NCBI RefSeq assembly: GCF_000190735.1
Contig: NC_015177.1
Coordinates: 310,001-374,000 of the forward strand
Length of the DNA: 64,000 bases
Origin: Pseudopedobacter saltans DSM 12145
GTDB taxonomy: Bacteria > Bacteroidota > Bacteroidia > Sphingobacteriales > Sphingobacteriaceae
Direction: 5' to 3'
Below the pieces are notes generated by a model. That model saw only the letters and a list, made by a program, of their open reading frames with translations. It was not told the origin of the DNA and did no database searches. Below are positions 24,172-44,704 of the stretch, in pieces (position 1 is the stretch's first letter; every line of letters begins with the position of its first letter). A program made the position numbers and the translations under genes.

Positions 24172-24848
24172 TATAATCCAATTTACATATCTATTGGCCA
24201 TTTATTACTTACAATAAAGGCACATCATAAGTGTTATTAGTTAACTTCATCGTTAAACTTTGAATTGGTGTTTTACCTCTTTTTTAGATATTAAGCTTTT
24301 ATTTTACAGACAGTTTAGGATTAAAGAGTATTGTTTTTAGATAAAACCCTCCAAATTAATAATTCTGTCAAGTAAACTGGTTTCACGAAGTTCTTCTTCC
24401 GAAGGAATTTTGCTGACGGTAGAACAAAAAATCAGTTAATAGCAGATGTCCTTATTTTACATCCATTATTACCTCCTGAATTTTAATTACAAGTTTCTAT
24501 CTATTGTTTGAATATGTGAATATAGTTTGTTTTGAATATAATAATGTATGTGTTCGAAAAAAACAGTTTATAATTAAAGTTAATAAATGGCAATTTTATT
24601 GAATGATTTGCCAAAAAAATACAATAAAAAAAAGACGAAAAGGTCTAATCTTGTTAATAACTAATTATAAAACCAAATGAAAGAAAAAATCATCCCTTTT
24701 GGTGATAATAGAAAGTTGTTAGGATTTCTATTTTTAAATTTAGGTATCAATAAGAGAATCACAGGGAAAATTACTTTCAAGAACCTGTCGGGCTAATAGG
24801 TGTCAATAAGTTTTATTTATCATGTCATGAGATCAAAATTTATTGTTT
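24172..24848. other. AT-rich spacer between tRNA-Ala and the peptide/efflux island
   Basis: About 680 bases without a recognisable gene. A minus-strand stretch at about 24338-24436 is open for about 33 codons and reads protein-like (it includes SKIPSEEELRETSLLDRI), but it has no start codon and may be the tail of a lost gene. A strong AGGAGG-like sequence with an ATG on the minus strand near 24466 opens only four codons. A possible peptide ORF at 24677-24796 is listed separately. Confidence 0.4.
24677..24796 (+). CDS. Possible 39-residue peptide ORF, unknown
   Basis: A short open frame starting MKEKIIPFGDNRKLLGFLFL and ending in KNLSG, with an A-rich leader (ATAAAACCAA) directly before the ATG, as is usual for Bacteroidota. 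It is basic, with a hydrophobic centre. It lies 52 bases upstream of the HTH gene, so it could be a leader peptide or a small secreted peptide. No family is recognised and chance is possible. Confidence 0.3.
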   Translation: MKEKIIPFGDNRKLLGFLFLNLGINKRITGKITFKNLSG

Positions 24849-25136
24849 ATGCCAAAATATTACTTCGATAGACTTGAATATCTAGATGAATTGATACGAC
24901 ATAGAAGAACAGGAAGTCCATCCCAATTAGCCGAAAAATTTAATGTGTCTAAACGTACTGTTTTTGAATATATAGAGATTTTAAAATCTCTGGGAGCTGA
25001 GGTTGAATATTGTAGATATAGGGAGACATATTATTATAAACGACAGGGGCGATTTGATTTCCATTTTAAGTTAATCAATACGCTAGTGATTTTGTTAATG
25101 CAATTTGTTATCTCGTTGGAAAGCTATTTGTTTTAA
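24849..25136 (+). CDS. Small HTH DNA-binding protein
   Basis: A 95-residue protein starting at the ATG at 24849 (MPKYYFDRLEYLDELIRHRR); an in-frame TTG lies 6 bases before. Residues about 20-60 form a DeoR/HTH_11-type winged helix (GSPSQLAEKFNVSKRTVFEYIEILKSLG). The rest turns hydrophobic (LINTLVILLMQFVISLESYLF), so the C-terminus may contact the membrane. It lies 48 bases upstream of the RND adaptor on the same strand and is the only visible transcription factor of this island, so it is the likely local regulator. Confidence 0.75.
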   Translation: MPKYYFDRLEYLDELIRHRRTGSPSQLAEKFNVSKRTVFEYIEILKSLGAEVEYCRYRETYYYKRQGRFDFHFKLINTLVILLMQFVISLESYLF

Positions 25137-25184
25137 TTGTTTTTTTGTAAAAAATAAAACATCCTTTTTCATAAACTTCTTCTT

Positions 25185-26276
25185 ATGCATTTATTCATGA
25201 TATTAAGAATTCCTATACCACTTTTTGTTTTGGCAGTTATCGTATCCTGTAATAATACCGAAACGACAGATTCAGATAATGTTATCCAAAAAAGCCCTTT
25301 TCAAAAAACAGAAGTCGTAGTGCAAACCGTACCTGTAAAAACAGGTGTCTTCAATCAGGAAATTATTAGTAATGGAAAAGTTTTTGCTGAAAATAACGCA
25401 GAAATAAAGTTTCCGGTATATGGTGCCATCCAACAAATTTTTGTTAAAAACGGACAAAGAATATCAAAAGGACAACTCCTTGCTACTCTCGATGACACAG
25501 ACTTAAGAAACAAATTTAATCGTATTAAGGAAGCTCTGGAAAAAGCTCAGGTCGATCTGGATGATCGGCTTATAGATTATGGTTATCGTCTAAAAGATTC
25601 GACAAAAGTTCCTGCCGATATTATGAAAATGGCTCGTATTAAAAGCGGATATGCAAGTGTCCGGTTTGATTACGCAGAAGCTTTGGCAAGTTTAGGAAAG
25701 ACTCGGATTATTGCACCCTTTTCGGGGAAAATTGCCAATATGGAAGCACGAGAATTCAATACGAGCGATAACTTTAGGAAATTATGTACCTTAATAGATG
25801 ATTCTCGCTTGAATGTAGAATTTAATGTACTGGAAACCGAATATCACTCTATTTCAAAAGGTTCCGCAATTGAGGTATCTCCTTATGGAAGTAATATCTC
25901 GGTAAAAGGAATCGTATCTGATATTAACCCTTTGATAGATGATAACGGAATGATTAAGATTACCGGAGTAATAAATAATATCGGTGAAAATTTGTTAAAT
26001 GGAATGAGTGTTAAAGTTATTATAAAAAAAGGTATTCCGGAACAAATGTTTATTCCTAAACAGGCAGTATTGCAAAGACAAGATAGGCAAGTTGTTTTTA
26101 CTTACGAAAATGGTCGGTCGAAATGGAATTATGTAGAAACCGAACTCCAGAATACTCATTTAGTAACTATTAAATCGGGATTAAAAAATGGTCAGCAAGT
26201 TATTATAAGTAATAATTTTAATTTGGCGCATGATGCCGAAGTGATTCTGGATGATAGCAAATCAGAACCCCAATAA
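25185..26276 (+). CDS. RND efflux periplasmic adaptor (membrane fusion protein)
   Basis: A 363-residue lipoprotein-type adaptor that bridges an RND pump and a TolC channel in the periplasm. The N-terminus has a hydrophobic leader with a lipobox-like VIVSC ending near residue 22; a second ATG 12 bases in gives the same mature protein. The biotinyl-lipoyl half-motifs (VYGAIQQIFVKNGQRISKGQLLATL and IIAPFSGKIANMEAREF) flank a helical hairpin of normal length, followed by a beta-barrel and a membrane-proximal domain. Its end overlaps the first RND permease by 26 bases. The matching outer-membrane channel is probably the TolC-like gene at 38580-40061. Confidence 0.9.
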   Translation: MHLFMILRIPIPLFVLAVIVSCNNTETTDSDNVIQKSPFQKTEVVVQTVPVKTGVFNQEIISNGKVFAENNAEIKFPVYGAIQQIFVKNGQRISKGQLLATLDDTDLRNKFNRIKEALEKAQVDLDDRLIDYGYRLKDSTKVPADIMKMARIKSGYASVRFDYAEALASLGKTRIIAPFSGKIANMEAREFNTSDNFRKLCTLIDDSRLNVEFNVLETEYHSISKGSAIEVSPYGSNISVKGIVSDINPLIDDNGMIKITGVINNIGENLLNGMSVKVIIKKGIPEQMFIPKQAVLQRQDRQVVFTYENGRSKWNYVETELQNTHLVTIKSGLKNGQQVIISNNFNLAHDAEVILDDSKSEPQ

Positions 26277-29200
26277 CTCTTGTGATAAAGGAATAAAGCT
26301 GGGATTCCCGGCCTTTAGTGTAATTATCGCTTTTACAATTTTTATGATTGTAGGAATAGCGATTACGCCTTTAATTTCACTTAGATTGGAACCATCGGGT
26401 TTCCTTAACTCTATTACTATAAATTTTAATTGGCAAAAAGCTTCTGCCGAAATGGTAGAACATGAGGTAACAGCTCGTTTGGAAGGTGCTTTAGCAACGT
26501 TAAAAGGTGTTAAAAAAATCAGTTCAAGTTCCTATACAGGAGGAGGATATGTCCGTGTAGATTTGGATGAGCATAGCAGCGTAAACCAAATCAGGTATGA
26601 AGCAGCGATACTTATCAGACAAATTTACTCAAAATTACCTATAGGTGTTACATACCCGGTAATTAGGGTAAATCAGCCTTTGGGGCAGGGGAATAAATCA
26701 GTTTTGTCTTATACAATAAATGGTAGGGGAAACTTGTCTGAAATACAACGATATGCTGAAAGAAATATTGTTCCAACATTAGCTCAGCTGAATGGGGTAT
26801 ACGACATTCGTATTTACGGTGGAAATCAATATAACTGGGAGCTTCAGTATAACTCCTCTGACCTTGTACGATATCGTATTTTTCCAGATGAAATGGTATC
26901 AGCGATAGATAAGTACTTTAAAGAGTACGAGCTGGGCAGGGTGCATGTAGATAATTACTTATCGGGAGATAGCGAATATCGTTATCTAAAATTGAGGGCA
27001 AGAAGAACAGATTCTATCCCGTGGGGAAGTATTCCGGTAAAAAAGATAGGTGGTGGGATTGTTTACCTGGGGGATATAGCTAAAGCAAAATATGTGGAAC
27101 AGAAACCCGGATCTTATTATCGTATAAATGGTTTAAATGCGATTAATCTGATCGTATATGCGGCAGAGGGGACAAATTATATTTCATTGGCAGGAGAAAT
27201 TAAAAGGCAAATGGAGCAGTTGAAAAAAAGTCTTCCTGGTGATTATTCTATCGTTCTCTCTTATGATTCTTCCGAACATCTCAAAAAAGAGCTGGATAAA
27301 ATAATTTGGCGTTCACTTTGTACATTGGCAATTCTGCTGCTATTTGTATTTATAGTGAGTCGGCAGTTAAACTATTTACTCCTTATTCTAATTTCGCTTG
27401 TAGCTAATTTATTATTAGCATTTATTCTTTACTACTGTCTGAAGCTGGAAATTAACCTTTACTCTCTGGCAGCTATTACTGTATCTATGGGGATGATCAC
27501 AGATAACAGTATAGTGGTTATCGATCATGTCCGACATAAAAATAATTTAAAGGTTTTCTTAGCAGTAACAGGCTCGACCCTAACAACAATAGGTGCAGTT
27601 TGTATTATTTTTTTTCTGGACGAGCAGCAAAAAGTTAATCTACTGGATTTCGCATGGGTAATGATTGTTAATCTGGGGATTTCCTTATTGGTAGCCTTAT
27701 TTCTTATTCCGGCTTTACTGGAAAAAATACCTCTGCCACAGCAGCGCTTGTCTTTAATGATCCGAAGGAAAAGGAAGGTAGTGAAGTGGAACCGATTTTA
27801 TTCACTTTTTATAAGTTTTAATTGCCGTTTCAGGATATATTATATTATAGTTCTGATTCTCATCTTTGGCCTTCCGTTTTTTATGCTTCCTGCAAAAATC
27901 GAACAAAAAGATTTCTGGGGAGCAAAGATGTATAATGCAACCTTTGGTAGTAGTTTTTATAACGAAAATATAAGGTTCGGGGCTGAAAAATGGTTGGGTG
28001 GGACATTGCGGTTATTTATATCGCAGCCCGGCAGATTTGACTATGGTAATAATTCTCATGAGCGTACCCGGTTAACCGTAAATATCAGTATGCCAAAGGG
28101 AGCAAGTTTGGCCCAAATGAATCGGATAGCAGTGGATTTCGAGAATTATCTGAGTCAATTCAAAGAAATAGAAAAATTTCAATGTAAGGTTAATAGTGGA
28201 CAGAGCGCTTCTATTGATATTCTGTTTCATGAGGAATATGATGAAGGAGTTTTTCCTGATTTTTTAAAAAGTGAACTGGAAACAAAGGCGATTTATACGG
28301 GGCTGGCAGATTTTACGATAAGTGGTGTAGGGCAGGGATTTAATAACCAGGTTAATACACAGAATGCTAATTACAGCATCGTTTTACAGGGGTTTAATTA
28401 TCAGGAATTGCGCAATTGGGCAGAACAGGTTAAAGATATACTCTCCGAAAATCCCAGGGTTGATAAGATTTCAATTGGAACTGAAAGAGACTGGTCGGGA
28501 AGAAAGCTGGATGATGAATTTGTTTTTCGTATTGATGACAACGATCAATTACTGGTTAATAATGTATCCCCAAGAAATATGCAAGCTGCATTTAATGATT
28601 TTTCTGCCGATAAACGTCCCGCAGGATCAATATTTTATCGAGGAAATTACATTCCGGTAGTATTAGTCCCGACTAAACCTACTTCCACTATATGGCAGGT
28701 GATGAACGAACCTGTACAGGCCGACTCGGGAGCCTACATTCGATTAAATGGCTTCGCTTCGGTTGATAAGGAAAAAGTGGAAGATAAAATATTTAGGGAA
28801 AATCAGCAGTATCAGCTTGTGGTAAATTATAATTTTATTGGAGATCATTTTTTTGCTACGATGCTGTCCGATAGAGTCATAAACCGTATAAAAGTCAATT
28901 TGCCTTTTGGATATACTATAGAAAGTGCCACAGTAAACTTTTGGAGAGGTTCAGAAAAAAAACTGGCGTGGACTATCTTTCTTACCATAGCCATTGTATT
29001 TATGGTCTGTGCTGTTTTACTAAACTCTATAAGTCAGCCATTAGCTGTAATCGCCATGATTCCGATCTCTTTCATTGGGGTATTTATCACTTCTTATTTT
29101 TTCGACTATCGTTTTGATGAAGGCGGATATGCAGCTTTTATTATTTTATGTGGTGTTGTCGTGAATGCCGCGCTCTTTATTCTTAATGATTATAACAATC

Positions 29201-29478
29201 TTTTAAAAGATCAGGGACATAAAGATAAATTGACATTATTTGTAAAATCATATAACTCTAAAATAATACCTGTTATTCTCAGTACGGTTTCAATGATTAT
29301 TGGGTTAATCCCCTTTATTATTTACTCTAAAAATGATGTTTTCTGGTATGCGCTTGCTATAAGTACAATCGGAGGACTGGTTTTTTCCATGATAGCAGTA
29401 CTGGTTTTCTTACCTATGTTTTTAAAAGGAATAGGAAAGAAAAGCAGAAAATTTAAATTGATTAAGAACAGGTTATAA
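26251..29478 (+). CDS. RND permease, first of a pair
   Basis: A 1075-residue inner-membrane RND transporter with about 12 helices and two large periplasmic loops. It starts inside the end of the adaptor gene. The TM4 proton-relay motif is MGMITDNSIVVIDH, with one Asp where AcrB has two. The TM10 lysine region reads VVVNAALFILND, lacking the AcrB lysine, a pattern common in other RND subgroups. It differs strongly from the next gene, so the pair looks like a heteromeric pump similar to MdtBC. The substrate is unknown. The gene context points to an endogenous product rather than a drug (inference). Confidence 0.9.
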   Translation: MIANQNPNNSCDKGIKLGFPAFSVIIAFTIFMIVGIAITPLISLRLEPSGFLNSITINFNWQKASAEMVEHEVTARLEGALATLKGVKKISSSSYTGGGYVRVDLDEHSSVNQIRYEAAILIRQIYSKLPIGVTYPVIRVNQPLGQGNKSVLSYTINGRGNLSEIQRYAERNIVPTLAQLNGVYDIRIYGGNQYNWELQYNSSDLVRYRIFPDEMVSAIDKYFKEYELGRVHVDNYLSGDSEYRYLKLRARRTDSIPWGSIPVKKIGGGIVYLGDIAKAKYVEQKPGSYYRINGLNAINLIVYAAEGTNYISLAGEIKRQMEQLKKSLPGDYSIVLSYDSSEHLKKELDKIIWRSLCTLAILLLFVFIVSRQLNYLLLILISLVANLLLAFILYYCLKLEINLYSLAAITVSMGMITDNSIVVIDHVRHKNNLKVFLAVTGSTLTTIGAVCIIFFLDEQQKVNLLDFAWVMIVNLGISLLVALFLIPALLEKIPLPQQRLSLMIRRKRKVVKWNRFYSLFISFNCRFRIYYIIVLILIFGLPFFMLPAKIEQKDFWGAKMYNATFGSSFYNENIRFGAEKWLGGTLRLFISQPGRFDYGNNSHERTRLTVNISMPKGASLAQMNRIAVDFENYLSQFKEIEKFQCKVNSGQSASIDILFHEEYDEGVFPDFLKSELETKAIYTGLADFTISGVGQGFNNQVNTQNANYSIVLQGFNYQELRNWAEQVKDILSENPRVDKISIGTERDWSGRKLDDEFVFRIDDNDQLLVNNVSPRNMQAAFNDFSADKRPAGSIFYRGNYIPVVLVPTKPTSTIWQVMNEPVQADSGAYIRLNGFASVDKEKVEDKIFRENQQYQLVVNYNFIGDHFFATMLSDRVINRIKVNLPFGYTIESATVNFWRGSEKKLAWTIFLTIAIVFMVCAVLLNSISQPLAVIAMIPISFIGVFITSYFFDYRFDEGGYAAFIILCGVVVNAALFILNDYNNLLKDQGHKDKLTLFVKSYNSKIIPVILSTVSMIIGLIPFIIYSKNDVFWYALAISTIGGLVFSMIAVLVFLPMFLKGIGKKSRKFKLIKNRL

Positions 29479-29489
29479 AAGATTAGCGT

Positions 29490-32400
29490 ATGGTCAAGTT
29501 TCTTATACATAAGCCGGTAGCTGTAATTGTTGTTTTTGTTGCACTAATGCTTTTAGGTATTCTTGCTATAAAAAAAATACCTATTTCTTCCTTGCCTGAT
29601 ATCGATATTCCAGAGATTACTGTTCATGTAAATAATAGAAATTTTTCGGCTTATGAATTGGAAAATACTGTGATTAAACGTCTGCAGGCTTTATTATTTC
29701 AGGTGCCGGATATTGCCGACATACATACAGAAACAAAAGATGGCTACTCTATTATTCGCCTGCGGTTTAATTATGGGTCGGATATTAACCATGCATTTCT
29801 TGAAGTAAATGAAAAGATTGATCTTTCCATGAATAGTTTGCCTCGAGATATGGAACGGCCAATCGTAATTAAATCGAGTATAACAGACTTGCCTGTATTT
29901 TATATTAATCTTCGCTTGAAAAAAAATGATGCATTTAAAGATGCTTCCTTCAGATTTATTGAATTGAGCAATTTTGCTGAAAAAGTTATTAAACGCAGGT
30001 TGGAACAGTTGCCAGAGATCGCTTTTGTAGATATTACCGGCATGGTACATTCAGAGGTTTGTATTATCCCGGATAAAGCAATTATGCAGGCATTAAACTT
30101 TAAAGATGACGATTTTAAGCGAATTATCGAAAGCAATAACCTGATTTTGGGTAATGTAAGAGCTACAGATAGCGATTTACAATATAACATACGGTTCTCA
30201 TCGGCGAATATATCCTCAGTTGAAGATATTCGTAATATTCCATTTATCCTTAGGGGAAGAATATTCAAATTAAAGGATATAGCCAAAATTGAAATCAGAA
30301 GCCAGGAACCATCAGGAGCATTTATAGCGCATAATGAGCCTGCATTAAGCCTGGCTGTTATCAAGCAACCTGCTTCCAGAATGGAAGACCTGCATGAAAA
30401 TGTTAAAAAATTGCTCGAAAAGCTCGAGAAGACATATCCGGATATACAATTTGAGCAAACGCAGGACCAAACGGAGCTTCTCGATTACTCAATCAGCAAT
30501 TTAAAGCAGGATTTACTGGCAGGAAGTTTTTTTGCTTTTATACTCATGTTTTTCTTTTTGAAAAATTTACGGAGTCCTATTTTAATTGGTATATCTATTC
30601 CCGTTTCGCTGATACTAAGTATACTGTTTTTTAAGCTGTTTAATATAACTATCAATATTATTTCTTTGGCCGGTTTGGTTCTTGGCGTAGGACTGATGAT
30701 AGATAATTCAATCATAGTAATAGACAATATTACCCAGTATCGCGAACGTAAATTTGAACTGTCTGATGCTTGTGTAAAAGGAACTAACGAAATTATTCGG
30801 CCATTAATTTCTTCGGTACTTACTACCTGTTCGGTATTTCTACCTTTGATATTCTTAAGTGGGATATCAGGTGCTTTGTTTTACGACCAGGCAATGGCTA
30901 TAACTATTGGTTTGACAGTTTCCCTGTTTGTATCTATTACGCTTCTTCCCGTATTGTATAGATTGTTCCATTTAAAAAAAGTACGATTGATGGAAACCGC
31001 CTTTTTTGATAAATATGGGATTACTTTTTTTGAAAGCCTTTATGAGTCTGGTTTCCATTGGATCTTTAAGAATAAACTTGCTTCCCTGTGCATTGTTTTA
31101 GCGCTCATTGTTTCAAATATTTTCTTTTTTAATATTTTAAAAAGAGAAAAATTACCCGCTTTTGAAGAAACGGAGATCGTATTGCATGCCGATTGGAACC
31201 AAAATATCCATCCTGATGAGAGTGTAAAAAGATTGAAAACGTTAATTAATCTTTTTAAAAAAGAGGATATTTCACAGTCGAACGCGGCAGTAGGGGGGCA
31301 ACAATATTTGCTAAATAAAGACAAACAACTTTCATTATCAGAAATTGAACTTTATATAAAAGCTAAAGATGTCCAAACTTTAAAAAATATTAAGGAGAAA
31401 ATACAAAGCTTTATGGCCCTAAATTTTCCTGCTGCCTCTTTTGAATTAAGGCCTCCAAAAAGCCTTTTCGAACGAATATTTGAGAATGGTGAGACCGATC
31501 TTGTGGTCCAATTATCACAATCGGGAGATAAATTATTACCCTCTAAAGAAGTGGTAGACCAGGTTGTTAAAAAATTGAATGCCCGATTCCCTGAAATTCA
31601 TATTAATCAGATTCCTTTACAGCAAACACTTATTTTAAATATCGATCAGGAGAAATTACTATTGTACGATCTTTCTATGGATAAGGTTTATGCCAGATTA
31701 AGGAGCTTGTTAAATGTCAGCGAGATTAGTAAACTGGGCAATGGCCCGCAACAGGTCCCTATCGTGGTTAGTTATCCCCCGAGTAATCTTGCGGAAGTTA
31801 TACATACTGTAACGGTAAGTAATAATAAAGGAATATCTATTCCTGTTTCAGGTTTTTTAAATATGAATGAAGAGGCTTACTATAAGACTATAGAAGGCGG
31901 AAGAAATGGTAATTTTATTTCCCTGCCTATTGAAACCTCCAATCCCGAAAAAGTAATTCATTATTTGAATACAGAAATACAGGGAAAGGATAATCTGAAA
32001 ATTACCTACGAAGGAAGCTATTTCTCGAATAAAAAGCTGGTTAATGAAATGACTATTGTATTACTGGTATCTGTACTTTTACTGTATTTCATTCTGGCTG
32101 CGCAGTTCGAATCGCTTATACAACCTTTAATAGTCTTGTTTGAGTTGCCTATCAGTATGAGCGGAGCGTTGATTTTACTGTATGTTTTTAATTCCTCTTT
32201 AAATCTTATTTCACTGATAGGTCTGGTGGTTATGTGCGGGATTATTATAAACGATTCGATTTTAAAAATCGATACCATAAACGACTTATGTAAGAATTAT
32301 GGCTATAATTTAATGGATGCCATTCATACAGCAGGTACCAGGCGGTTAAAATCTATTATCATGACCAGTATGACAACTGTTCTTTCGGTAATTCCTTTTT

Positions 32401-32773: not shown

Positions 32774-33181
32774 ATGAAAAAACAAAAAAAAGCAATTCCC
32801 TTAGTAGCTAAGGTAATTGGAAGTGCTGTATTTCTTTTTGTATTTATTTTTAACATCATGATGTTCGTCCAAAAGAATAGCAACACCAGCAATTTATCTC
32901 TTGAAAGCCTGAAAGCTTATGCGCAGACGGGAGGAGAAAATGGGGAAGGGGGAGAAGGAGGGGGAGAGAACAGTACTTGTCCGGAAGGGCTTTCTAAAGG
33001 AGATTATTCTAGTGTTCAATTGGGGGAACCTTATCAATGGTGGAATCCAAGTGAAGGAAAATATTATACTTGTTATAATTATGAGAAAACTTTTATATGT
33101 AATGAGGATGGCTCAGCATGTGATGATTGTGATAGAGTTGATCAGAACTATAACTGTACTCCAACTTCACCGTCTATTTAA
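32774..33181 (+). CDS. NVEALA-like cysteine-rich peptide precursor
   Basis: A 135-residue protein with a lysine-rich start and one membrane-spanning signal segment (about 12-33), then LSLESLKAYA at 41-50. That matches the NVEALA-type signature in position and in pattern: a leader helix followed by a conserved segment ending in Ala. Cleavage after AYA (residue 50) would release an 85-residue product with a Gly/Glu-rich linker (QTGGENGEGGEGGGEN) and six cysteines at 69, 100, 109, 116, 119 and 128. NVEALA proteins are short exported peptides of unknown function, often found beside beta-propeller lipoproteins, as here. Confidence 0.7.
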   Translation: MKKQKKAIPLVAKVIGSAVFLFVFIFNIMMFVQKNSNTSNLSLESLKAYAQTGGENGEGGEGGGENSTCPEGLSKGDYSSVQLGEPYQWWNPSEGKYYTCYNYEKTFICNEDGSACDDCDRVDQNYNCTPTSPSI

Positions 33182-33215: not shown

Positions 33216-33256
33216 TTCCAAGACTTGTGAACTTTTTTAGCTCACAAGTCTTGGAA
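33216..33256 (+). promoter_or_regulatory. 15-bp perfect hairpin between the peptide gene and the first propeller
   Basis: Arms at 33216-33230 and 33242-33256 pair perfectly around an 11-base, T-rich loop. The hairpin begins 35 bases after the peptide stop and ends 15 bases before the propeller ATG. There is no T run after it, so it may be an mRNA 3' barrier or processing site that makes the peptide transcript more abundant than the propeller transcripts, rather than a standard terminator. Confidence 0.7.
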
Positions 33257-35583: not shown

Positions 35584-35707
35584 GGGGAAGCGTGTATAAT
35601 AACAAAGTGAAATGAAAAGAAAAGGAATTATTCGGGAATTTGCCACGTCATATGTTTCCCAGGTTAATGTAATCTCTTTTATTTATAGTGATAAAACTAT
35701 TCAAAAA

Positions 35708-36874
35708 ATGAAAATTGTGTCGTTGTTTTGTTCTATAATTTTAGTCGCAGTTTCTTGCAATAAGCTGGAAAAAAAACATATTGCAATCAGTTCTGAATAC
35801 CAAAATATTAAAGTTAATTTAGAAAATGATTCTATAATCAAGTTTTCCGATATAATTAAATCTTCCTTTTTTTTGAAACTAGAAACAAAAAATGATGCAT
35901 TAATCGGTAATATCGATAAATTGGTTTTTGACAGTGGAAAGATATTTATAGCAGATAAAGATATTGCAGAAGCAATTTTTATATATAGTGATAGCGGCAA
36001 ATTTCTTAAAAAAATAGATGGAAAAGGGCAGGCTCCAGGAGAGTTTTTAGAAATTCGAGATTTTACCTTAGATACGGTTAATAAATATTTATATGTCTTA
36101 GATTTACAAGGCAGGAAGGTTAATGTATATAATTATGAAGGTGAATTTTTACGTTCCAATCCTATGCCTTTCCTTTTTTCGGCGTTTGCTTATATCAATT
36201 CTAATATTTTCGCAATGTCTACTGCTACTGCCTATAATAAGCAAAATCCGAAAATAAATAATCACTATTTAGTGACGGCAGAGTTGAGTGGTAAGATAGT
36301 GAGCGCAGAATTTCCTTTTAATAATAAAGAAAGAGATTTTACTTATTTTAATGCAGCTCCCCTTAGAACCTTTGGTTCAAAGGTGTTATTCTACCCACGC
36401 TATAGCAATACAATTTATGAGGTAGGTAATAATAGTACAAAACTTTTATATTCCTTGGATTTTAACGGAAAAGGCATTCCTTCAGAAGAGAGGGAGACTT
36501 TAAATGATGTTAATTTTTTGAAATTACAAGATTCTTATAGTTATTTCTCAGGAGATTATGCGGATCTTGACCGGTTCGCATATTTTATTGTAAATACTCC
36601 TAAGGGAAATCGGAAATTGTTTTTTTCGAAAAAATCAAAGAAAACTCTTATTACAAGTCGCTATCTAATATCTGATCCTATGCATAACTTCATAACGACT
36701 CCTATTGCAACAAAAGGCGGAGATACCTTGGTTACATTTGCTAAGTCAATGGAAGTTTTAAATTTGAAGGCATTAGCTGTAGGGAAAGATACTGTCGTAG
36801 CTAATCGATTGGCTAATAACTTAAGCTTGAATAGTAATCCTATACTTTTTTTCTATAACCTTAAGGAGTTTTGA
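35708..36874 (+). CDS. 6-bladed beta-propeller lipoprotein (divergent third copy)
   Basis: A 388-residue lipoprotein starting at the ATG at 35708 (MKIVSLFCSIILVAVSC; lipobox cysteine at residue 17). An upstream in-frame ATG at 35612 adds a non-signal stretch and is less likely. The core has DSGKIFIADKDIAEAIFIYS, KIDGKGQAPGEFLEIRDF and YLYVLDLQGRKVNVYNYEG, so it is a propeller of the same family but not a recent duplicate. Its sequence is more AT-rich than copies 1 and 2. The thioredoxin-like gene follows 3 bases later. Confidence 0.83.
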   Translation: MKIVSLFCSIILVAVSCNKLEKKHIAISSEYQNIKVNLENDSIIKFSDIIKSSFFLKLETKNDALIGNIDKLVFDSGKIFIADKDIAEAIFIYSDSGKFLKKIDGKGQAPGEFLEIRDFTLDTVNKYLYVLDLQGRKVNVYNYEGEFLRSNPMPFLFSAFAYINSNIFAMSTATAYNKQNPKINNHYLVTAELSGKIVSAEFPFNNKERDFTYFNAAPLRTFGSKVLFYPRYSNTIYEVGNNSTKLLYSLDFNGKGIPSEERETLNDVNFLKLQDSYSYFSGDYADLDRFAYFIVNTPKGNRKLFFSKKSKKTLITSRYLISDPMHNFITTPIATKGGDTLVTFAKSMEVLNLKALAVGKDTVVANRLANNLSLNSNPILFFYNLKEF

Positions 36875-36877: not shown

Positions 36878-37465
36878 ATGAAGAAATATTATTTGATAAT
36901 ACTATTTAGTATCTTTTTTTTATTAAATGTATGTTTGATTACTAAATTTATGCTTTTTAGTAAGGCAAGTAAACAAAAAGAGTCTCTTTTAGAAATGGAA
37001 AAGAAGTTTCTTACAGATTTTATTATTAAATATTCATTTAGTTTTCCATCCTTTCCATTATCAAATTCTATCGTTCTTGAAGGAGAAAATGGTCAGAAAG
37101 AGTCATTAAAGTCAGTTGTTGGGGAAAGTCAAATAACTATATTAAAAATTTCTCAAAACAATTGCTTCTCATGTATTGAAAGTGAATTTAATGTTCTTAA
37201 AAATTTGAAAGGAAATCGTTCCAATATCATAATTATCGCACAATATGACTCTATTAGAGAATTGGCGTTATTAAAGAACAAAAATAATTTGGAATATAAG
37301 ATATTTAATACTGTTGATCAATTACCGATGGATAAATTAGAGAAGCTAAATGTACCCTACTACTTTACTGTAAATGAAACGTTAAATATGTCTTCGTTTT
37401 TTATTCCAGATAAAAATTATCCTTTTTTATCCGAAAACTATCTTATTAATAGAGCTTATAATTAA
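36878..37465 (+). CDS. Membrane-anchored thioredoxin-like protein with a CFSC motif
   Basis: A 195-residue protein with an N-terminal membrane anchor (about 4-27) and a periplasmic domain. The region about 85-130 reads like a thioredoxin fold: ITILKISQNNCFSCIESEFN carries a CxxC (Cys96, Cys99) at the end of the first strand, then NIIIIAQYD. The cis-proline region appears as NVPYYFTVN. The domain resembles TlpA/redoxin-type proteins found beside beta-propeller genes. The six-cysteine peptide precursor lies upstream in the same strand run, so an oxidase or isomerase role for that peptide is possible but inferred. Confidence 0.7.
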   Translation: MKKYYLIILFSIFFLLNVCLITKFMLFSKASKQKESLLEMEKKFLTDFIIKYSFSFPSFPLSNSIVLEGENGQKESLKSVVGESQITILKISQNNCFSCIESEFNVLKNLKGNRSNIIIIAQYDSIRELALLKNKNNLEYKIFNTVDQLPMDKLEKLNVPYYFTVNETLNMSSFFIPDKNYPFLSENYLINRAYN

Positions 37466-37629
37466 AAAGTTTGTTTCTAGACTAAATAAAAATTAAATTT
37501 ATATAAAAGAGAGTAGTTAATATCGTTTTTTGTAGCCTTACTTCAAGTGTTATTTCCCAGGTTTGGTATCTTATAACAGCTTTGTTGAAATACAGCAAAG
37601 GGTAGCTGTACCTATGATGCTTTTTCTGA

Positions 37630-38229
37630 AAGCCAACTGTCTTGGACGCTCACGGAATTAATTTTATAAACTCAACCCACATTAAGGTATGCCATAACAG
37701 AGGGATTCATAACCATAAGGTATTTGCTGCTGTAGCCGAACGGGAACAGTGTTCACTGGGCTGGTTTTATGGCTTTAAACTGCATCTGATTATCAATAAC
37801 AGAGGTGAAATTCTATCTTTCTACTAAACAAAAGGCAATGTTGATGACAGAAATGTGAAGCTGATGAGCTCCATGACAGAATATATATTTGGTAAACTAT
37901 TCGATGATAAATGCTATATATCAAAGGCACTAGCAGATTTATTTGGGGGGAAACGGCATACAGATGATTACCAAACCACGGAAAAATATGGAAAGAATTC
38001 AATATCTCCCAAGCAGATAAAATCATGCTCAGAAAGAGAGCTATTATTGAATGTGTAAACGATGAATTACAAAATATTTGTAAGCTGCCGCATACCAGAA
38101 TCGCTCTATAAACAACTTTTTAAATGAATAGAATGGGAGTACTTTGTGCTTATCATTTCTTCCCTAAAAAAACCTTCTCTGAATATCGGTTTTGAAACAA
38201 ATGATAAGCAATTACTTTTAGCCGCTTAA
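37630..38229 (+). pseudogene. Broken IS982-type transposase
   Basis: Fragments of an IS982 transposase in several frames. HIKVCHNRGIHNHKVFAAVAEREQCSLGWFYGFKLHLI is recognisable at about 37675-37790, then a stop, then TKGNVDDRNV and LFDDKCYISKALADLFG. A frameshift follows, and then RKRAIIECVNDELQNICKLPHTR at about 38030-38100 before more stops. The frame breaks show that it is inactive. The N-terminal third is missing. Confidence 0.85.
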
Positions 38230-38370
38230 ACCGACATTTCTCAAAATAGAAGACGGATAAAACTCCCACTCAGATACATGTATCGGAAATACCAGAGCGA
38301 AAGATTGAGGTTGTAAGGCAAGACAAGAGAAATAACAGGTTTTCTTCAGAAGGCAACTCTCAGATCTGCT

Positions 38371-38562
38371 TTGGTAAACATTGAATGTGTCAATGATGAA
38401 CTAAAAAATATCTGCAAGCTCCAGCACACCCGTCACCGTTCGATCAATAACTCCCTAATGAATACAATGGGGCGTACTTTGTGCTTATCTTTCTTCCCTA
38501 AAAAAACTTCTCTGAATATCGCTTTTGAAACAAATGATAAGCAATTATTATTAGCTGCTTAA
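38371..38562 (+). pseudogene. 3' fragment of a second IS982-type transposase copy
   Basis: This fragment encodes VNIECVNDELKNICKLQHTR and FPKKTSLNIAFETNDKQLLL, the same C-terminal segment as the preceding pseudogene and about 330 bases further on. The two differ by substitutions, so they are not a recent duplicate. The 3' end TTAACCCGAACTCAGGTTAA at 38560-38579 is an imperfect inverted pair that may be the right end of the element. Confidence 0.8.
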
Positions 38563-38579
38563 CCCGAACTCAGGTTAAA

Positions 38580-40061
38580 CTAATTAAAATCCAAATCAGA
38601 AAACTCAATATTTTTATTTTTTTCAAAATCATAGAGCGTTAATCTTCGCATAAGATAATATAGCGACCAATAATTTTTGAGGTTGTTGATATGGTCGGTT
38701 ACTGCCCTGTCTTTATCAAGTTGGGCGTTATTAAAATCTGTAAAACTAATGCTGCCTAAAGCGTATTTTTGTTTAGCGATATCATAGCGTTGTTCTGCCA
38801 GCTTGCGTGTTTCGAGTGCAATAGCAATCTGTTCATTTTGCATCTTCCATTTCAATACCTGATAGTATATTTCCTGTTCGGCGGAAAGTTCTAGTTGACT
38901 AATATTATTATTTTCAAGTTCAAGATTAGCCTCGGCCTTTTTACGGTTTGATTTGTTTACGCCCCAATCCACCAAAGGAATGCTGAAACCAATAGTTACT
39001 GATTGATTACGTAACAGGTTTTCATAAGCATACTGTAATTCACTTCCACGTTGCGTCACTCCAATATTTGCTCGGAGAGTAACAGATGGTCCGGTTTCTG
39101 ATCGGGTTCGCGCTACAGCTCTTTCGGCTTCGAGCCTTCGACGCTGAATTTCTATTATAAATTTCCTGTTAGTTTTTGCCTTTTCCAATGCCACGTCTGG
39201 GTCGATCTCAAAAGAACTAACTTTGTCTGGCAACTCAAGTGCTGTTTTATCATCTTTTTTCAAATTGAGGAAACGGACAAGATTCTGTTTTGCGGTTTCT
39301 AATCTTAATAAAGAATTTGCTGCCGCTTTTTTTGCATTTAGTAAACTTACTTTAGATTGTAAAACTTCATTAAGCAGTACTGTGCCGATTTCAAAGCGAG
39401 ATTGTGTTATTTTAACTAAAGTGTCAATATTTCTTAAGTTTTGATCATCCAGTTTTTGTTGAATATCAGCTGATAATAACTCAAAATATTTTTCAATTGT
39501 ATTATAGGAAATAGCTTCCAGATTTTCCAGATAAGCTCGTTGTGCCTCCTGTAATCGCAAGGGTTCAATTAACTTTTGCCATTTATAATCATTATAGAAT
39601 AAGTTGTTTTGAAAGTAACTTAAGGAAAAAGGAACCGATGTATATGCTGAATTTTTTTGAGTTCCAAAATTATCGATTCTACGCAGAGAGGAAGATGCCG
39701 ATATTCGCCCTCCTGTTAAGCCAATGTTTTGCGAAAGGTCTGCACTGAGTCCGGAATTAGCTACATTTTGGCTGACAAAGCTATTCTCTCCTGATGGTAG
39801 CGTAATAGTATTTATAGTTCTGTAATAGTCTGGTAGTGTTCCGTTTAAAGAAAGTTTTGGTAGAAAACCAGCTTTGTATGATTGATAATTCCAATGTGAA
39901 GATTTAGCGGTATTCAGAGCAATTTTATAATCGAGAGAGTTTTTTTGTGCGAGTTGAATAGCTTTATTAAGAGAAAGACTGTCCATGGATTGCGAATACG
40001 CCTTAAATAAAGCAGTAAAAAAGATATAGAGTGTAAAAATAAGTTTAAGATAATTCATCAT
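38580..40061 (-). CDS. TolC-family outer-membrane efflux protein
   Basis: A 493-residue OEP/TolC protein with a signal peptide (ending near FKAYSQS at residue 24). Two repeats of long helices and beta segments are visible (SLNKAIQLAQKNSLDYKIALN; then LEKAKTNRKFIIEIQRRRLEAERAVARTRSETGPSVTLRANIG). It is the only outer-membrane channel in the island and is the natural partner of the RND adaptor and permeases, although it is on the other strand. It is the last gene of the transglutaminase-signal peptidase-ligase operon, 25 bases after the ligase gene. The region downstream, toward the IS relics, is free of other genes. Confidence 0.9.
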   Translation of the reverse strand: MMNYLKLIFTLYIFFTALFKAYSQSMDSLSLNKAIQLAQKNSLDYKIALNTAKSSHWNYQSYKAGFLPKLSLNGTLPDYYRTINTITLPSGENSFVSQNVANSGLSADLSQNIGLTGGRISASSSLRRIDNFGTQKNSAYTSVPFSLSYFQNNLFYNDYKWQKLIEPLRLQEAQRAYLENLEAISYNTIEKYFELLSADIQQKLDDQNLRNIDTLVKITQSRFEIGTVLLNEVLQSKVSLLNAKKAAANSLLRLETAKQNLVRFLNLKKDDKTALELPDKVSSFEIDPDVALEKAKTNRKFIIEIQRRRLEAERAVARTRSETGPSVTLRANIGVTQRGSELQYAYENLLRNQSVTIGFSIPLVDWGVNKSNRKKAEANLELENNNISQLELSAEQEIYYQVLKWKMQNEQIAIALETRKLAEQRYDIAKQKYALGSISFTDFNNAQLDKDRAVTDHINNLKNYWSLYYLMRRLTLYDFEKNKNIEFSDLDFN

Positions 40062-40086: not shown

Positions 40087-41946
40087 CTAATTACTTGAAT
40101 GCGCTATAAGTCTCCTTATATCATCTTTCATTTCTTTTATTGCCGGTGATGGTATTTTAGGATTTGTAGATAAAATATTCTGAGAAACTTCTTTGGCTTT
40201 ATCTATCTGCTTTGTGTTAAAATAAAGTTTAGCTAATAAATATTTACTATACAATCGATTGGGGATCATATTTGATGCAAGTATTAGAAAATATTCAGCT
40301 TTGTTGTATTCTTTTATAGCTATATAAGCCTCTGCAAGATTGATGCAAATAAAAGGATCTGACATATATCGATTCGCTTCCCCAAGTATGGAAATTGCCT
40401 CTTTATATTTTTTTTCATCTAATAAAAGTTTACCATATTTTGCTCTGAAATTTGCATCTGTTTTTAAACTCGGATACAATTCGGAGAATTTAGCGGAAGA
40501 CTGATTCTCATTCGTATATATTTTCCATGTGGTGTAAGCATTGAATTTATTTTTTGCCTTAAGAAATAAGGTAATTGATCCGGAAAAAAGCAAAATACCG
40601 ATTATTAGAGAGAAATTTTTAGAGAATTTTTTTAGATGTATTTGATTTGCTTCAATATCATTAAAAGCTGATAATAAGGCTAAATTGATAAAAAAAACAA
40701 TATGTACCGCAAGAACATCAAACGGGTAGGAAAATTGTCCGCAAATAATTATCGCAATTATTGATGCTGCAACACCTACGCCGAAATAGGCGTTAGATTG
40801 AACTTTGAATGTGTTTTTATAAAATTGTTTAAAAATAGAATAAAGTATTGCAATGAACAGAGCCAACCCTATAATACCTTGCTCCGTAAAAATCTGGATG
40901 AAAATATTATATGGATAATAAACTTTATCTGCTAATTCGATCTTTTGAGGATCCCGATTGTCGGCCGCAAAGTATGTCGCCTGATAGGTATTGTAGCGAC
41001 TTTCAAAATTGCCATAACCTATTCCTGTAAGTGTATTCTGTTTTATGATGTCTGTACTAATTTCCCAAACTAATAAACGCCCGTCTGCTGATTTAGGTTT
41101 CAGATGATATAATGCAAGTAAAAAGAGAAAACCTGTAAACAGAAGACCTCCAAGTGCAAAAACTGTTTTTCGAATAGTAAAGAAACGAAATACCTGGTAT
41201 TTATAGAAAATAATAAATAAAGCGGCAGCTACAGTACCGAACCATGCAGCTCTTGTATAAGTAATGGGTAAAATAAGTGTCCCTGCAAGTGTTGCGGAAA
41301 GGGAAATAAATTTTATGATAGTGGCATGAGGCGATCCTTGAGGATATAAAAGATATGTAGCAAAAGTAAGTGGTAATAAGGCAGTCAGATAATTTGCATA
41401 AGGCGCAGGGCTTTTAAATTGACCCGTTACTTTGAAGAACATATCATTGGGGTTTACTAAATCATATAATTGAAACAAACCATATAAAGAACTTGATAAT
41501 AGAATGACAGCTGTTAGCAATATTTGATAATATACAAATTGTTGTAGTTGTTTAGGATTGAGAGTAGTGACGTATGTTTTGAGAATCAAATAGAGTATCG
41601 TCAGACAAATATAGTTAGAAAGCTTATCTGAAAAAAAGTCGTCTTGACTAAGTCCTTGTTTGATCAATATATACAGTAAAGTAACAACAATTAAGATGTC
41701 TGTTAAATTGATTTTCGCGGCTTTGATGTATATCATATTAGTTATTAAACCAACCGAAGTAACCAGTAAAAGAATACTCATTTGTAAGTAGAATACAATT
41801 TTAGGACCTGTTACAAACGCATTAACCATTATGCTTTGTGGAACTATGAAAGAGATTGTTAGAAATGTGCTGGTTAACAATACCATAAGCCACATATAGA
41901 TATGTTTCCTTTTAGAAGATTGTTTGGGATTTGCGGTGATATTCAT
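40087..41946 (-). CDS. O-antigen-ligase-like membrane protein with C-terminal TPRs
   Basis: A 619-residue protein. About 10-12 hydrophobic helices fill residues 1-440, and the periplasmic loop (residues about 300-350, with ITGIGYGNFESRYNTYQATY and NIFIQIFTEQGIIGLALF) matches the Wzy_C/O-antigen ligase core. Residues about 490-615 are TPR-like helical repeats (YKEAISILGEANRY, NKAEYFLILASNMI, IDKAKEVSQNIL). WaaL ligases and PglL/PglO O-oligosaccharyltransferases share this fold, and TPR tails are common in the latter. The glycan and acceptor are not known. It lies 2 bases after the second signal peptidase. Confidence 0.85.
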   Translation of the reverse strand: MNITANPKQSSKRKHIYMWLMVLLTSTFLTISFIVPQSIMVNAFVTGPKIVFYLQMSILLLVTSVGLITNMIYIKAAKINLTDILIVVTLLYILIKQGLSQDDFFSDKLSNYICLTILYLILKTYVTTLNPKQLQQFVYYQILLTAVILLSSSLYGLFQLYDLVNPNDMFFKVTGQFKSPAPYANYLTALLPLTFATYLLYPQGSPHATIIKFISLSATLAGTLILPITYTRAAWFGTVAAALFIIFYKYQVFRFFTIRKTVFALGGLLFTGFLFLLALYHLKPKSADGRLLVWEISTDIIKQNTLTGIGYGNFESRYNTYQATYFAADNRDPQKIELADKVYYPYNIFIQIFTEQGIIGLALFIAILYSIFKQFYKNTFKVQSNAYFGVGVAASIIAIIICGQFSYPFDVLAVHIVFFINLALLSAFNDIEANQIHLKKFSKNFSLIIGILLFSGSITLFLKAKNKFNAYTTWKIYTNENQSSAKFSELYPSLKTDANFRAKYGKLLLDEKKYKEAISILGEANRYMSDPFICINLAEAYIAIKEYNKAEYFLILASNMIPNRLYSKYLLAKLYFNTKQIDKAKEVSQNILSTNPKIPSPAIKEMKDDIRRLIAHSSN

Positions 41947-41948
41947 TT

Positions 41949-42761
41949 TTAATAAATCTTTTTAAATAAATCATAGAAGCGTACGGAAGATGAATTTTTA
42001 TTCTGTCTTGATGAGAAGACTTTTAATATAGCTTTACCGATAATATCTTCTTCAGGAAGAAATCCCCAAAATCTGGAATCCGTAGAATGCCACCTATTAT
42101 CGCCTAATGTGAAATAATAGTTACGTTTAAATCGGTAAGAGGAAGCTATTTTTCCATTGATTAATATATGATCATTGAAAATTTTTATGTTATTTCCTTC
42201 ATGTTTTTCAATGACGGTTTTGTACGCTCTGATATTTATGGGAGAGATACCTATCTCCATGTTTCTTTTAGGAATAATTACCGGGCCATAATTTGCTTTG
42301 TCTTTTGACCTGAAATATTGCGGAAGATTTTTGGGGAATTTCAGATGATATATTATTGGAACGTTAGAGGAAGGTTTTTTTGCTTTTTCTAATAGGCCTG
42401 ATATATAAGGGGTGTTGTTTACGATTAAAAGAGTATCTCCCGGCAGGCCTATACATCTTTTTATCCAGATTTCTGAGTTTGCCTGAGGATGATTAAAAAC
42501 AATGATATCATTTCTTTTTACTGGAGAAATTCCGGGGACTTTCAGATTGAAGAATCTAGTTCCATAATGTATCTTACTAACTACGATACCATCACCGGGA
42601 TATAAGGTTTTTTGCATAGATATAGAGGGTATCATATAAAACTGAAAAATGAAAGTTTTGCAAAACAGGGAAGTAAGTATTGCTGCAAAAATTATTAATG
42701 CCAGATTTTTTATAAAAAAAAAGGATTTGTTTCCATTAAAAAATGCTTTTACTACCACCAT
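41949..42761 (-). CDS. Second signal peptidase I, shorter paralogue
   Basis: A 270-residue membrane serine protease. A transmembrane helix at about residues 19-37 is followed by box B (MIPSISMQKTLYPGDGI) with catalytic Ser48 and box D (IWIKRCIGLPGDT) with catalytic Lys101. Box E (TLGDNRWHSTDSRFWGFLP) is near the C-terminus. It is 100 residues shorter than the housekeeping LepB at 3453-4565. It overlaps the transglutaminase gene by 10 bases and is clearly operonic. Placement in the peptide/efflux island suggests a dedicated substrate, possibly the NVEALA-like precursor, which has an Ala-X-Ala-type site (AYA). Confidence 0.93.
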   Translation of the reverse strand: MVVVKAFFNGNKSFFFIKNLALIIFAAILTSLFCKTFIFQFYMIPSISMQKTLYPGDGIVVSKIHYGTRFFNLKVPGISPVKRNDIIVFNHPQANSEIWIKRCIGLPGDTLLIVNNTPYISGLLEKAKKPSSNVPIIYHLKFPKNLPQYFRSKDKANYGPVIIPKRNMEIGISPINIRAYKTVIEKHEGNNIKIFNDHILINGKIASSYRFKRNYYFTLGDNRWHSTDSRFWGFLPEEDIIGKAILKVFSSRQNKNSSSVRFYDLFKKIY

Positions 42762-44704
42762 ATTTGTTTTCCATTTTCGAATGTGAAAGTACGTTCTTCT
42801 TTGCCACCAGATAAATTGCGGAGAATATAAAGGCCTTTTGAAGGAACTTCTTTAAATACAATTTTTTGATCTGTAGCTATCTGTTTTCCCATAGACGCCC
42901 AATGATCCTTATTCCAGTAAAAAAGCTCATATAGATTACCTATAATGATGAAGTTTGTGTCACTTCGGGGAGCATATTTAATTCTATTTATTTTTTTAGG
43001 CTTCCCAAAATCAAGCCCCGCCCAGGAGTAAGATAAGCTATCCTTGTTTCCTAAAAAGAAGGTTTCTAGTTTGCCATCAAAAGCATCCTGATAAGAATCA
43101 CCTATTTCAGCCGGTATTTCGGGAAAACCGATAGCTTTTCCTTTTACTTTAGTTGAGCTGGAATTGGTATAAAACTCTAGTTCAGCAAGATTAGCAGCAG
43201 CTTTGGGAGGAACATATCTCACGTAACGAAATGGCTTGGTGTTTTTCAGAGAAACTTCTTCAAATTTAATAGGAACAGATTTGATAGTATATAGTGTTAT
43301 CGCATCACTGAAATCAGGTCTATTTGAACCCTGAATCTTTCCATCAAGCAAACTTTTTGCATTATTGTCGTTCGATGGGTAACTGGGATTCTTACGTAAC
43401 AAAAGCATTTCCTGTTTTTTATCCTTCAATAGAGATATATAAGTTATTTTTCCATTTTTATGAAGAATAAAAGGATCTGTAGCAGGATAATAGTTTCCCG
43501 AGTCATAATACATGACCAGATAAACCAGGTTGGCTCCCATATTGTTGAAATAAGCCTTGTTGTTTTCTATTTCGCCATAATATTGAGCTGCCCATTTTTT
43601 GCGATCAAATGTGCATATAACAGCATACTTTTTTTGTTTGTTAAAAGAATAAGTTAAAGGGATACTCAAATTAAAAGTTTGAGTATATTCTTTGGTTACG
43701 TCAATTCTCTGACTAAGATAGTTAAGTAAATTATTAGGTAAATCACTCTGATTGACTTCAAGAGGTTGGATGGCGAATGTTTTTCTGTAAACTTTGCAGA
43801 AACGATAGGGATATTTATTTAACCCTCCAAAATTAGAGGCAGCGGCATCGAAGGGGAAATTTTTCCCGTTTTCCATGAGCACAGTATTCCAATGATGTCC
43901 TCGGTCGAGATCTCCCCATAAAGGAGATTCATCTATTCCGACAGGGATGCCATTGGCTCTCATTACCATTGCTGTATAATAAACGAGATGCCTGCAAGCA
44001 CCTCTTCCAGCTTTTTCCATTTGATAAACATCCATGTCATAAGGATAGGCCCTTACAATACGATTGAGAGATATACTGTCTTTAAGTACAAAATTGAGTT
44101 TGGAGGCAAGTTCATGACGATTTTTAAACTTTACAGTGTCTCTGAAAGGTTGAAATTTTTTATATAAAAAGTCACGCCAGGGTTGGAGATTTTCAGAACC
44201 AATTCGATAAGGCAAGAGGTATTCACAGAACTGTTCAAATCTCAAATCCTTATTCCAGAAAGAGGTCTTCCAAAGTTTATATGACAGGTCGATATTGTTA
44301 ATAAGATATTGGGCACTAATATTCTTATAGTCAGTTTTAATATCTGATTTTAATTTTGAATTCCAGTTATATGCTTTGCTTAACGAATCCCATTTTTGCT
44401 TAACGATTGGAGCTAGAGTGGGAATTACTTTATATTCCTTTTTTAACGAATCGAGTATATTAAAAAGAGGATCATATTTTTTTACATCAGGTCCGTCCAG
44501 GCTGAATCTGTAGGCCATATTCTCTATTAAGAAATATGCAGCTTTTAGTTTCTCATCATTTTTTTCCCGTTTGTAATGTTCTATCACTTTTTCGAGTTCA
44601 CTGCGATTCTTTTCGGATGCTTCTAAAATGATATCAATATTTTTTGGAGTTTGTGAGCATGAAAAGCAAAAAACGGGTAGAACAAAAAATAAGATTTTTT
44701 TCAT
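42752..44704 (-). CDS. Transglutaminase-like lipoprotein with C-terminal discoidin-like domain
   Basis: A 650-residue lipoprotein (MKKILFFVLPVFCFSC, lipobox cysteine at residue 16). Residues about 190-290 form a transglutaminase-like cysteine protease fold. The likely triad is Cys237 (GRGACRHL), His270 or His271 (RGHHWNTV) and Asp286 (FPFDAAA). The C-terminal ~150 residues have a galactose-binding/discoidin-like pattern (GKLETFFLGNKDSLSYSWAG, INRIKYAPRSDTNF). Proteins of this kind may act as peptidases or cross-linking enzymes. It is the first gene of the minus-strand operon and has its own 380-bp upstream region. The identity is fold-level only. Confidence 0.75.
   Translation of the reverse strand: MKKILFFVLPVFCFSCSQTPKNIDIILEASEKNRSELEKVIEHYKREKNDEKLKAAYFLIENMAYRFSLDGPDVKKYDPLFNILDSLKKEYKVIPTLAPIVKQKWDSLSKAYNWNSKLKSDIKTDYKNISAQYLINNIDLSYKLWKTSFWNKDLRFEQFCEYLLPYRIGSENLQPWRDFLYKKFQPFRDTVKFKNRHELASKLNFVLKDSISLNRIVRAYPYDMDVYQMEKAGRGACRHLVYYTAMVMRANGIPVGIDESPLWGDLDRGHHWNTVLMENGKNFPFDAAASNFGGLNKYPYRFCKVYRKTFAIQPLEVNQSDLPNNLLNYLSQRIDVTKEYTQTFNLSIPLTYSFNKQKKYAVICTFDRKKWAAQYYGEIENNKAYFNNMGANLVYLVMYYDSGNYYPATDPFILHKNGKITYISLLKDKKQEMLLLRKNPSYPSNDNNAKSLLDGKIQGSNRPDFSDAITLYTIKSVPIKFEEVSLKNTKPFRYVRYVPPKAAANLAELEFYTNSSSTKVKGKAIGFPEIPAEIGDSYQDAFDGKLETFFLGNKDSLSYSWAGLDFGKPKKINRIKYAPRSDTNFIIIGNLYELFYWNKDHWASMGKQIATDQKIVFKEVPSKGLYILRNLSGGKEERTFTFENGKQIWW

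Follow-up and report, generated by a model that had tools for sequence, protein, structure and literature searches.

A gene island within a 64,000-nucleotide stretch of Pseudopedobacter saltans DSM 12145 (contig NC_015177.1, positions 310,001 to 374,000 of the forward strand; hereafter the window, with coordinates counted from its first base) probably encodes, judging from its sequence, machinery dedicated to maturing and secreting small peptides rich in disulfides, built around a resistance-nodulation-division (RND) pump and a TolC channel. In a broader form, towards which we lean with somewhat less assurance, the island would represent an undescribed Bacteroidota secretion system in which a single dedicated two-permease RND/TolC pump, in many cases with a signal peptidase of its own, exports a range of disulfide-rich ribosomal peptides; the gene of each would sit in a cassette together with that of a propeller lipoprotein and usually that of a thioredoxin-like (Trx-like) protein. 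The linkage of these parts is not a matter of chance, as demonstrated by contrasts with controls at the level of both genomes and loci. An earlier reading of the window (the original prediction) had named 13 genes of such an island; all 13 are present, with the domains claimed.

Co-occurrence across genomes and loci

The first of the two permeases (permease 1; 26251..29478, plus strand, ACR_tran) was used as the marker of the system. A total of 104 permease-1 loci was assembled, comprising 80 named loci (the best 80 of 395 candidates, which lean to close relatives), 17 from the class, six from the family, and the window itself; the removal of 13 loci with a permease more than 85% identical to another left 91, of which 74, including the window, were at least 12 kb long. 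A first RND1 profile was discarded after it drifted to RND permeases generally, with control RNDs scoring 464-494 bits, and permease-1 loci were therefore set by A1 retrieval together with a comparison of P0003 and P0004 scores. The 40 controls consisted of 20 stretches around AcrB-type RND pumps, taken within the own bacterial family and for the greater part from permease-1-free genomes, and of 20 arbitrary 20-kb stretches, of which permease-1 genomes supplied 19 and genome G025 one.

At the genome level, permease-1 orthologues (E<=1e-200) were found in 17 of the 395 genomes of the class, own genome included (16/394 beside it), and DUF5128, the propeller family of the window (Pfam model, E<=1e-10), in 18. 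The two largely coincide: 15 of the 17 permease-1 genomes carry DUF5128 against 3 of the 378 others (Fisher p 2e-22, or 4e-21 without the own genome). In both permease-1 genomes without DUF5128 (G359 and G481), DUF4221 propellers lie no more than about 10 kb from permease 1. Genome G344, which has DUF5128 and no permease-1 hit, shows a permease-1 match divided over two segments (414 and 350 bits), at a distance of 9-10 kb from its propellers; G151, G161, and G196, three of the six genomes in that check, had been added as RND-negative comparisons. Among 150 relatives within the family, six possess a permease-1 orthologue, at 36-41% identity. A leader-bearing precursor was seen in the fetched stretches of five of these six; none was seen in the sixth, G057, the contig of which ends at 14.7 kb.

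At the locus level, the 73 RND loci other than the window contain an adaptor in 58 cases, permease 2 in 57 (58/74 with the window counted), and TolC in 38. A propeller of any of three families (DUF5128, DUF4221, or TolB_like) accompanies the pump in 57 loci, a Trx-like protein in 35, and an S26 signal peptidase in 28, each being found in 0/40 controls. Adaptors (19) and TolC (20), both from the AcrB-type loci, and ligase profile matches (2) were recovered from the 40 controls, which yielded no propeller, Trx-like protein, S26 peptidase, precursor, transglutaminase, helix-turn-helix (HTH) regulator, or DUF1573 protein. At least one of propeller, precursor, Trx-like protein, peptidase, and transglutaminase is present in 61/73 RND loci against 0/40 controls, and any partner, with the ligase counted, in 62/73 against 2/40. 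Together with the genome-level contrast, these counts bear out the earlier proposal insofar as the core parts constitute one recurring system.

The precursor and its cassette

The window precursor (32774..33181, plus strand, 135 residues) has six cysteines downstream of the sequence AYA. Using a leader profile built without it from 39 precursors of other loci, it ranked first among the 157 open reading frames (ORFs) of the window (E 6.5e-6, with the runner-up at 0.029), and the same profile gave 0 matches in 713 control ORFs. This profile replaced a regular-expression precursor finder, which was too loose, marking 33/74 loci but also 6/40 controls. The leader is built like that of the Pfam NVEALA family (PF14055), which is found beside DUF5128, with a basic start, then a helix and a spacer, and an NVEALA-like end ahead of the putative cleavage site; unlike members of that family, the window precursor is not detected by the Pfam model, which has no match in the whole of the own genome either (cut-off 27 bits). 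The original description of an NVEALA-like, six-cysteine precursor holds with regard to its cysteines and leader. A true Pfam NVEALA protein (35.9 bits) was found in genome G039, where the precursor lies inside the RND operon.

The precursor and a propeller form a regular pair. A propeller comes next in 54 of the 57 leader hits (E<1e-3), that is, 39/39 of those used in training and 15/18 of the others; three of these 18 repeat genes of other stretches, and among the 15 distinct genes the propeller follows in 14. Two of the three hits without a propeller next run off the end of the fetched stretch, both being repeats of genes seen whole, and the third is followed by a 194-residue protein. The 54 propellers belong to DUF5128 (39), TolB_like (9), and DUF4221 (6), and in 37/54 the next gene of another kind past precursor and propeller is Trx-like; family assignments were checked on example proteins. 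All these cassette counts are biased by the choice of training precursors, which were picked partly for their nearness to such genes. The window agrees with this order, its precursor being followed by three propellers and then the Trx-like gene.

Leader statistics were taken from 53 of the 57 hits, the four excluded being one copy truncated where its stretch ends, two repeats, and a fragment of 48 residues. An A-x-A site is present in 48 of the 53 leaders at a median of 21 residues past the hydrophobic core (quartiles 18 and 22), which is further out than in ordinary signal peptides. The residue directly after the site is usually Q, D, or E, that at position 3 is E in 22/48, and glycine is common from position 5 onwards. 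The number of cysteines is even in 50 of the 53 mature parts (counted from 12 residues past the core), which suggests that the mature peptides carry disulfides. Compared with control small ORFs having at least two cysteines, the even counts are 50/52 against 44/58 (Fisher p 0.002), a contrast weaker than that against a coin toss.

All three propeller lipoproteins of the window (33227..34411, 34441..35583, and 35612..36874, plus strand) match the six-bladed propeller family DUF5128 (PF17170) at 129, 137, and 152 bits, respectively (cut-off 22.9), and they are the only DUF5128 matches of the own genome; the first two are 78% identical to each other. The predicted model of the third (pLDDT 82.9) has as its nearest solved structure Bacteroides fragilis BF0058 (4raa; TM 0.81 by target), followed by the DUF4221 protein 3s9j, with the surface lipoproteins BtuG1 and BtuG2 among further matches, and thus fits a putative ligand-binding surface lipoprotein. 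In genome G255, a first look gave 48 DUF5128 candidates, of which the five scored are on separate contigs; the genome has a single permease-1 match.

The last gene of the plus-strand set (36878..37465) encodes a membrane-anchored CxxC protein without a Pfam match above cut-off. Its AlphaFold model (mean pLDDT 89.7) resembles ResA/TlpA structures (best E 1.1e-6, TM by target 0.59), and the initiator M1 and the two CxxC cysteines are the sole invariant residues across 16 aligned sequences; fold match and motif together uphold, at the level of a model, its earlier designation as a thioredoxin-like membrane protein.

Such cassettes could also be viewed as bacteriocin genes with their immunity, the same machinery releasing peptides putatively toxic to related bacteria and the propellers acting as cognate immunity proteins. 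The propeller coming next after the precursor, the even cysteine numbers, the repeated cassettes of loci L131, L140, L141, and L183, and the five tandem precursors with similar leaders in L145 would all suit this explanation, which we regard as possible, if leaning away from it: propellers can be very numerous (as in G255), and the window has three of them for one detected peptide. Rather unlikely, in our estimate, is a role in surface signalling, whereby the peptide would be a ligand sensed via the propeller lipoproteins, with a small HTH protein in the circuit, and not an antagonist. Small HTH genes do stand right before precursors in L131, L140, L145, L163, and L179, their relatives were recovered from 8/74 RND loci (window included; 7/73 without it) against 0/40 controls, and the gene before the precursor of genome G093 is presumably LytTR-like. 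The HTH genes are nevertheless confined to a minority of loci, and that of the window (24849..25136, plus strand; HTH_11, 36.2 bits) precedes the adaptor, some 7.6 kb from the precursor.

Other genes were observed in or near some of these loci. In L095 (148-7490, genome G137), more than 10 tandem small ORFs of 100-121 residues, mostly with similar ends, lie before a Wzy_C ligase gene; being without the leader, they were ruled out as precursors. DUF1573 proteins occur near some cassettes (L148 at 1724, L173 at 8005, and L195 at 4905; one confirmed by Pfam), amounting to 6/73 loci against 0/40 controls. A protein of about 770 residues is located between cassette and peptidase in the Flavobacteriaceae loci L163 (6377-8692) and L167, that of L163 having an MG2 match under the cut-off.

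The pump and the facing operon

The components of a tripartite RND pump, namely ACR_tran permeases, an adaptor, and TolC, occur together in the window. The adaptor (25185..26276, plus strand) matches HlyD_D23/HlyD_3 (Pfam) and RND_mfp above cut-off, and shares 60% identity with its Niastella counterpart in locus L126, against 25% for the best AcrB-type control. Permease 1 and permease 2 (29490..32552, plus strand) score 320 and 563 bits with ACR_tran (cut-off 28). Where the AcrB-type pump 8f3e has Asp-Asp and Lys, which we take to be the relay residues, permease 1 aligns with Asp-Asn and Asn, and Asp418, Asn419, and Asn972 are invariant in six aligned permease-1 orthologues. The window pump resembles two-permease RND multidrug pumps (MdtBC type) in having two ACR_tran permeases, an adaptor, and TolC; it is unlike them in that both of its permeases score far under the 1250-bit cut-off of the NCBIfam multidrug RND permease subfamilies (254.6 and 496.8 bits at best) and are accompanied by genes for peptides and a signal peptidase. 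In L069 (8132-11337, genome G007), permease 1 is split over two adjoining ORFs.

The plus-strand genes run in the order HTH, adaptor, permease 1, permease 2, precursor, three propellers, and CxxC protein, with intergenic gaps of -26 to 48 bases apart from the 221 bases before the precursor. The minus strand carries the transglutaminase, signal peptidase, ligase, and TolC genes, separated by -10 to 25 bases, and the two sets face each other over a 1,114-base spacer (37466..38579) without a working part, which consists of two partly repeated, broken transposase-like remnants, presumably of the IS982 family, with stops in all six frames. The TolC-type outer membrane channel bordering this spacer (38580..40061, minus strand; OEP) shares 41-42% identity with the TolCs that loci L066 and L069 carry inside their RND operons and 24% with the best control, and all 44 TolC hits from RND loci score above every AcrB-type control. 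On this likeness the channel is assigned to the RND-locus kind and, with it, to the same system. Because it groups with the TolCs of RND loci, the facing operons are most readily taken as putative halves of one system with the order rearranged. The remnants between the operons would suit a joining, by chance or through the remnants themselves, of two operons that are neighbours without being related and a peptide cassette that hitch-hiked along, as would the frequent pairing of ligase and transglutaminase away from permease 1 (see below). We hold such a joining to be very improbable in the face of the genome- and locus-level associations, the cassette order, the control counts, and the kind of TolC found in the facing operon.

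The facing operon also encodes an S26 peptidase (41949..42761, minus strand; Peptidase_S26, 128 bits) bearing the SISM, IKR, and GDNR motifs, which we take to include the Ser and Lys motifs of this family. A LepB-like enzyme (window 3453-4565) is the only other S26 peptidase of the own genome. In maximum-likelihood trees, the LepB-like rows form one clade (8 rows at 100/99, or 10 rows at 100/98 with more genomes), and the 35 locus peptidase rows all fall outside it; the window peptidase is placed on a long branch, in no starred set among the locus peptidases. The second type I signal peptidase of the original prediction is thereby set apart from the housekeeping LepB, and the enzyme is read as the putative dedicated peptidase of the system. 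The first tree was limited to locus ORFs of 240-460 residues and drew an ORF from 7/18 other S26 loci, the second from 12/18; nine of the latter 12 rows join the LepB of the window, and the remaining three (L281, L292, and L301) lie outside the LepB clade on long branches; two of them lack the GD motif and may be wrong ORFs. The peptidase gene directly precedes permease 1 in several Flavobacteriaceae and Prolixibacteraceae loci.

Two further minus-strand genes encode an O-antigen-ligase-like Wzy_C protein with C-terminal tetratricopeptide repeats (TPR; 40087..41946) and a transglutaminase-like lipoprotein with an F5/8 type C-like domain (42752..44704). The latter scores 27.8 bits with Transglut_core (cut-off 23) and has Cys, His, and Asp motifs, presumably the usual transglutaminase triad. 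The ligase is like the exosortase-associated O-ligase (TIGR03097) in being a Wzy_C-type membrane protein and unlike it in its score (30 bits, cut-off 188), and no exosortase family turned up in general domain scans of the 13 island proteins. In five of the six family relatives that possess permease 1, a Wzy_C/TPR relative is found no further than about 10 kb from it; across the RND loci, the ligase was found in 13/73 against 2/40 controls and the transglutaminase in 4/73 against 0/40. The 27 ligase loci without permease 1 contain a transglutaminase in 18 cases, a propeller in seven, a peptidase in three, and a precursor in two. Because the ligase accompanies so few RND loci, and because 20 of the 27 permease-1-free ligase loci are without a propeller, the ligase was dropped as a core part, and ligase and transglutaminase together appear from gene content to be an optional module usually found elsewhere; the original prediction had treated both as integral, a view not borne out as a rule. 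As a wider and separate pair, the Wzy_C/TPR ligase and the transglutaminase lipoprotein were seen in L072, L073, and 16 more ligase loci.

The position of the ligase gene, which adjoins the adaptor or peptidase gene in several loci, could also indicate that the pump exports some other product, such as a ligase-made glycan or lipid, which peptide and propellers would sense or scaffold. RND pumps usually move small molecules, which lends this explanation some weight; we consider it quite unlikely, the ligase being much rarer in the RND loci than the propeller or the peptidase.

Proposed pathway, standing and significance

In the proposed peptide-export pathway, the precursor would be inserted into the inner membrane through its N-terminal helix and, as the leader suggests, stay anchored there, the membrane-bound ResA/TlpA-like protein possibly keeping or setting the state of its cysteines. 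The dedicated S26 peptidase would then cut at the conserved A-x-A site, freeing a peptide that begins with an acidic, Gly-rich stretch. From the co-occurrence of the genes, the two-permease RND pump would take this peptide from the periplasm, with exit via the adaptor and TolC, and one pump could serve several cassettes in a genome. The propeller encoded just downstream would most likely be the cognate binder, whether as immunity protein, receptor, or presenter, and the ligase and transglutaminase might conceivably modify the product in some lineages. We thus infer cleavage, export, the pairing of peptide with propeller, anchoring, and cysteine handling from the sequences.

Several points weigh against this pathway. 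Export and cleavage are read from gene content. Permease 1 has Asn at two positions occupied by Asp and Lys in an AcrB-type pump, which puts in question the way in which it is energised. Since S26 is absent from 45 of the 73 stretches, the housekeeping peptidase may serve instead. ResA-type proteins are reductants, so the ResA-like protein fits the removal of disulfides as well as their formation. Genomes G477 and G498 have DUF5128 with no permease-1 orthologue, their RND matches being weak and general, and 11/73 RND loci show no partner gene in the stretch examined. The leader profile (E<=1e-3) was matched in 5/17 permease-1 genomes, own included, and in 7/378 others; the own sequence was in the alignment for this class-wide search, and the seven others are all weak. 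At E<=1e-4, with the own sequence left out, the count is 3/16 against 1/378, and in those three genomes a leader match lies 13-23 kb from permease 1. Precursors found strictly by the leader profile likewise occur in a minority of the RND loci (24/73 against 0/40 controls). The original prediction had agreed in advance to give way if RND pairs were, as a rule, without the peptide and propellers; the propeller half of that association stands up well, and the precursor half only in those 24 loci. Related genomes are, moreover, not independent, permease 1 being spread over 8 families, and the profiles were trained partly on the loci counted, a circularity from which the Pfam and leave-out tests are free.

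Among known systems, class II microcins and double-glycine bacteriocins are secreted by an ABC exporter with a C39 peptidase, an adaptor, and TolC. The proposed system is alike in its small leader-bearing peptide, leader peptidase, tripartite exporter with TolC, and partner gene beside the precursor, and differs in having an RND pair in place of an ABC exporter, S26 in place of C39, and a membrane-helix A-x-A leader in place of a double-glycine one; no C39 or ABC exporter domain was found among the 13 island proteins by Pfam scans. In the open-access literature searched (with preprints and most subscription papers outside its scope), no description of this system was found, nor any exporter or peptidase assignment for the NVEALA family, and the name 'NVEALA' itself is absent. 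The system looks new as a combination of genes.

A similar set of names occurs in Bacteroides thetaiotaomicron, for which the excerpted table of PMC10434189 lists BT0662 as an O-antigen ligase, BT0664 as a 6-bladed beta-propeller, BT0667 as signal peptidase I, and BT0669 as an RND adaptor; in that excerpt the BT0662-BT0669 entries carry expression changes, with the second number given being 0.11 or more. The likeness is one of gene names and neighbouring locus tags in the excerpt, and PMC10434189 is the only open-access paper in the literature searched to mention the six locus tags of that stretch. Since similar gene names are neighbours there, the system looks testable in this genetically tractable gut species. 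Much of the gene set recurs across Bacteroidota, apparently with B. thetaiotaomicron included.

RND pumps are known for the transport of drugs, metals, and lipids. If the proposed reading is true, an RND route dedicated to gene-encoded peptides would amount to a secretion system of a new type, and three propeller families (DUF5128, DUF4221, and TolB_like) and the NVEALA peptides, known only as domains, would be given a shared job, in which they would serve peptide-based signalling or antagonism between bacteria.

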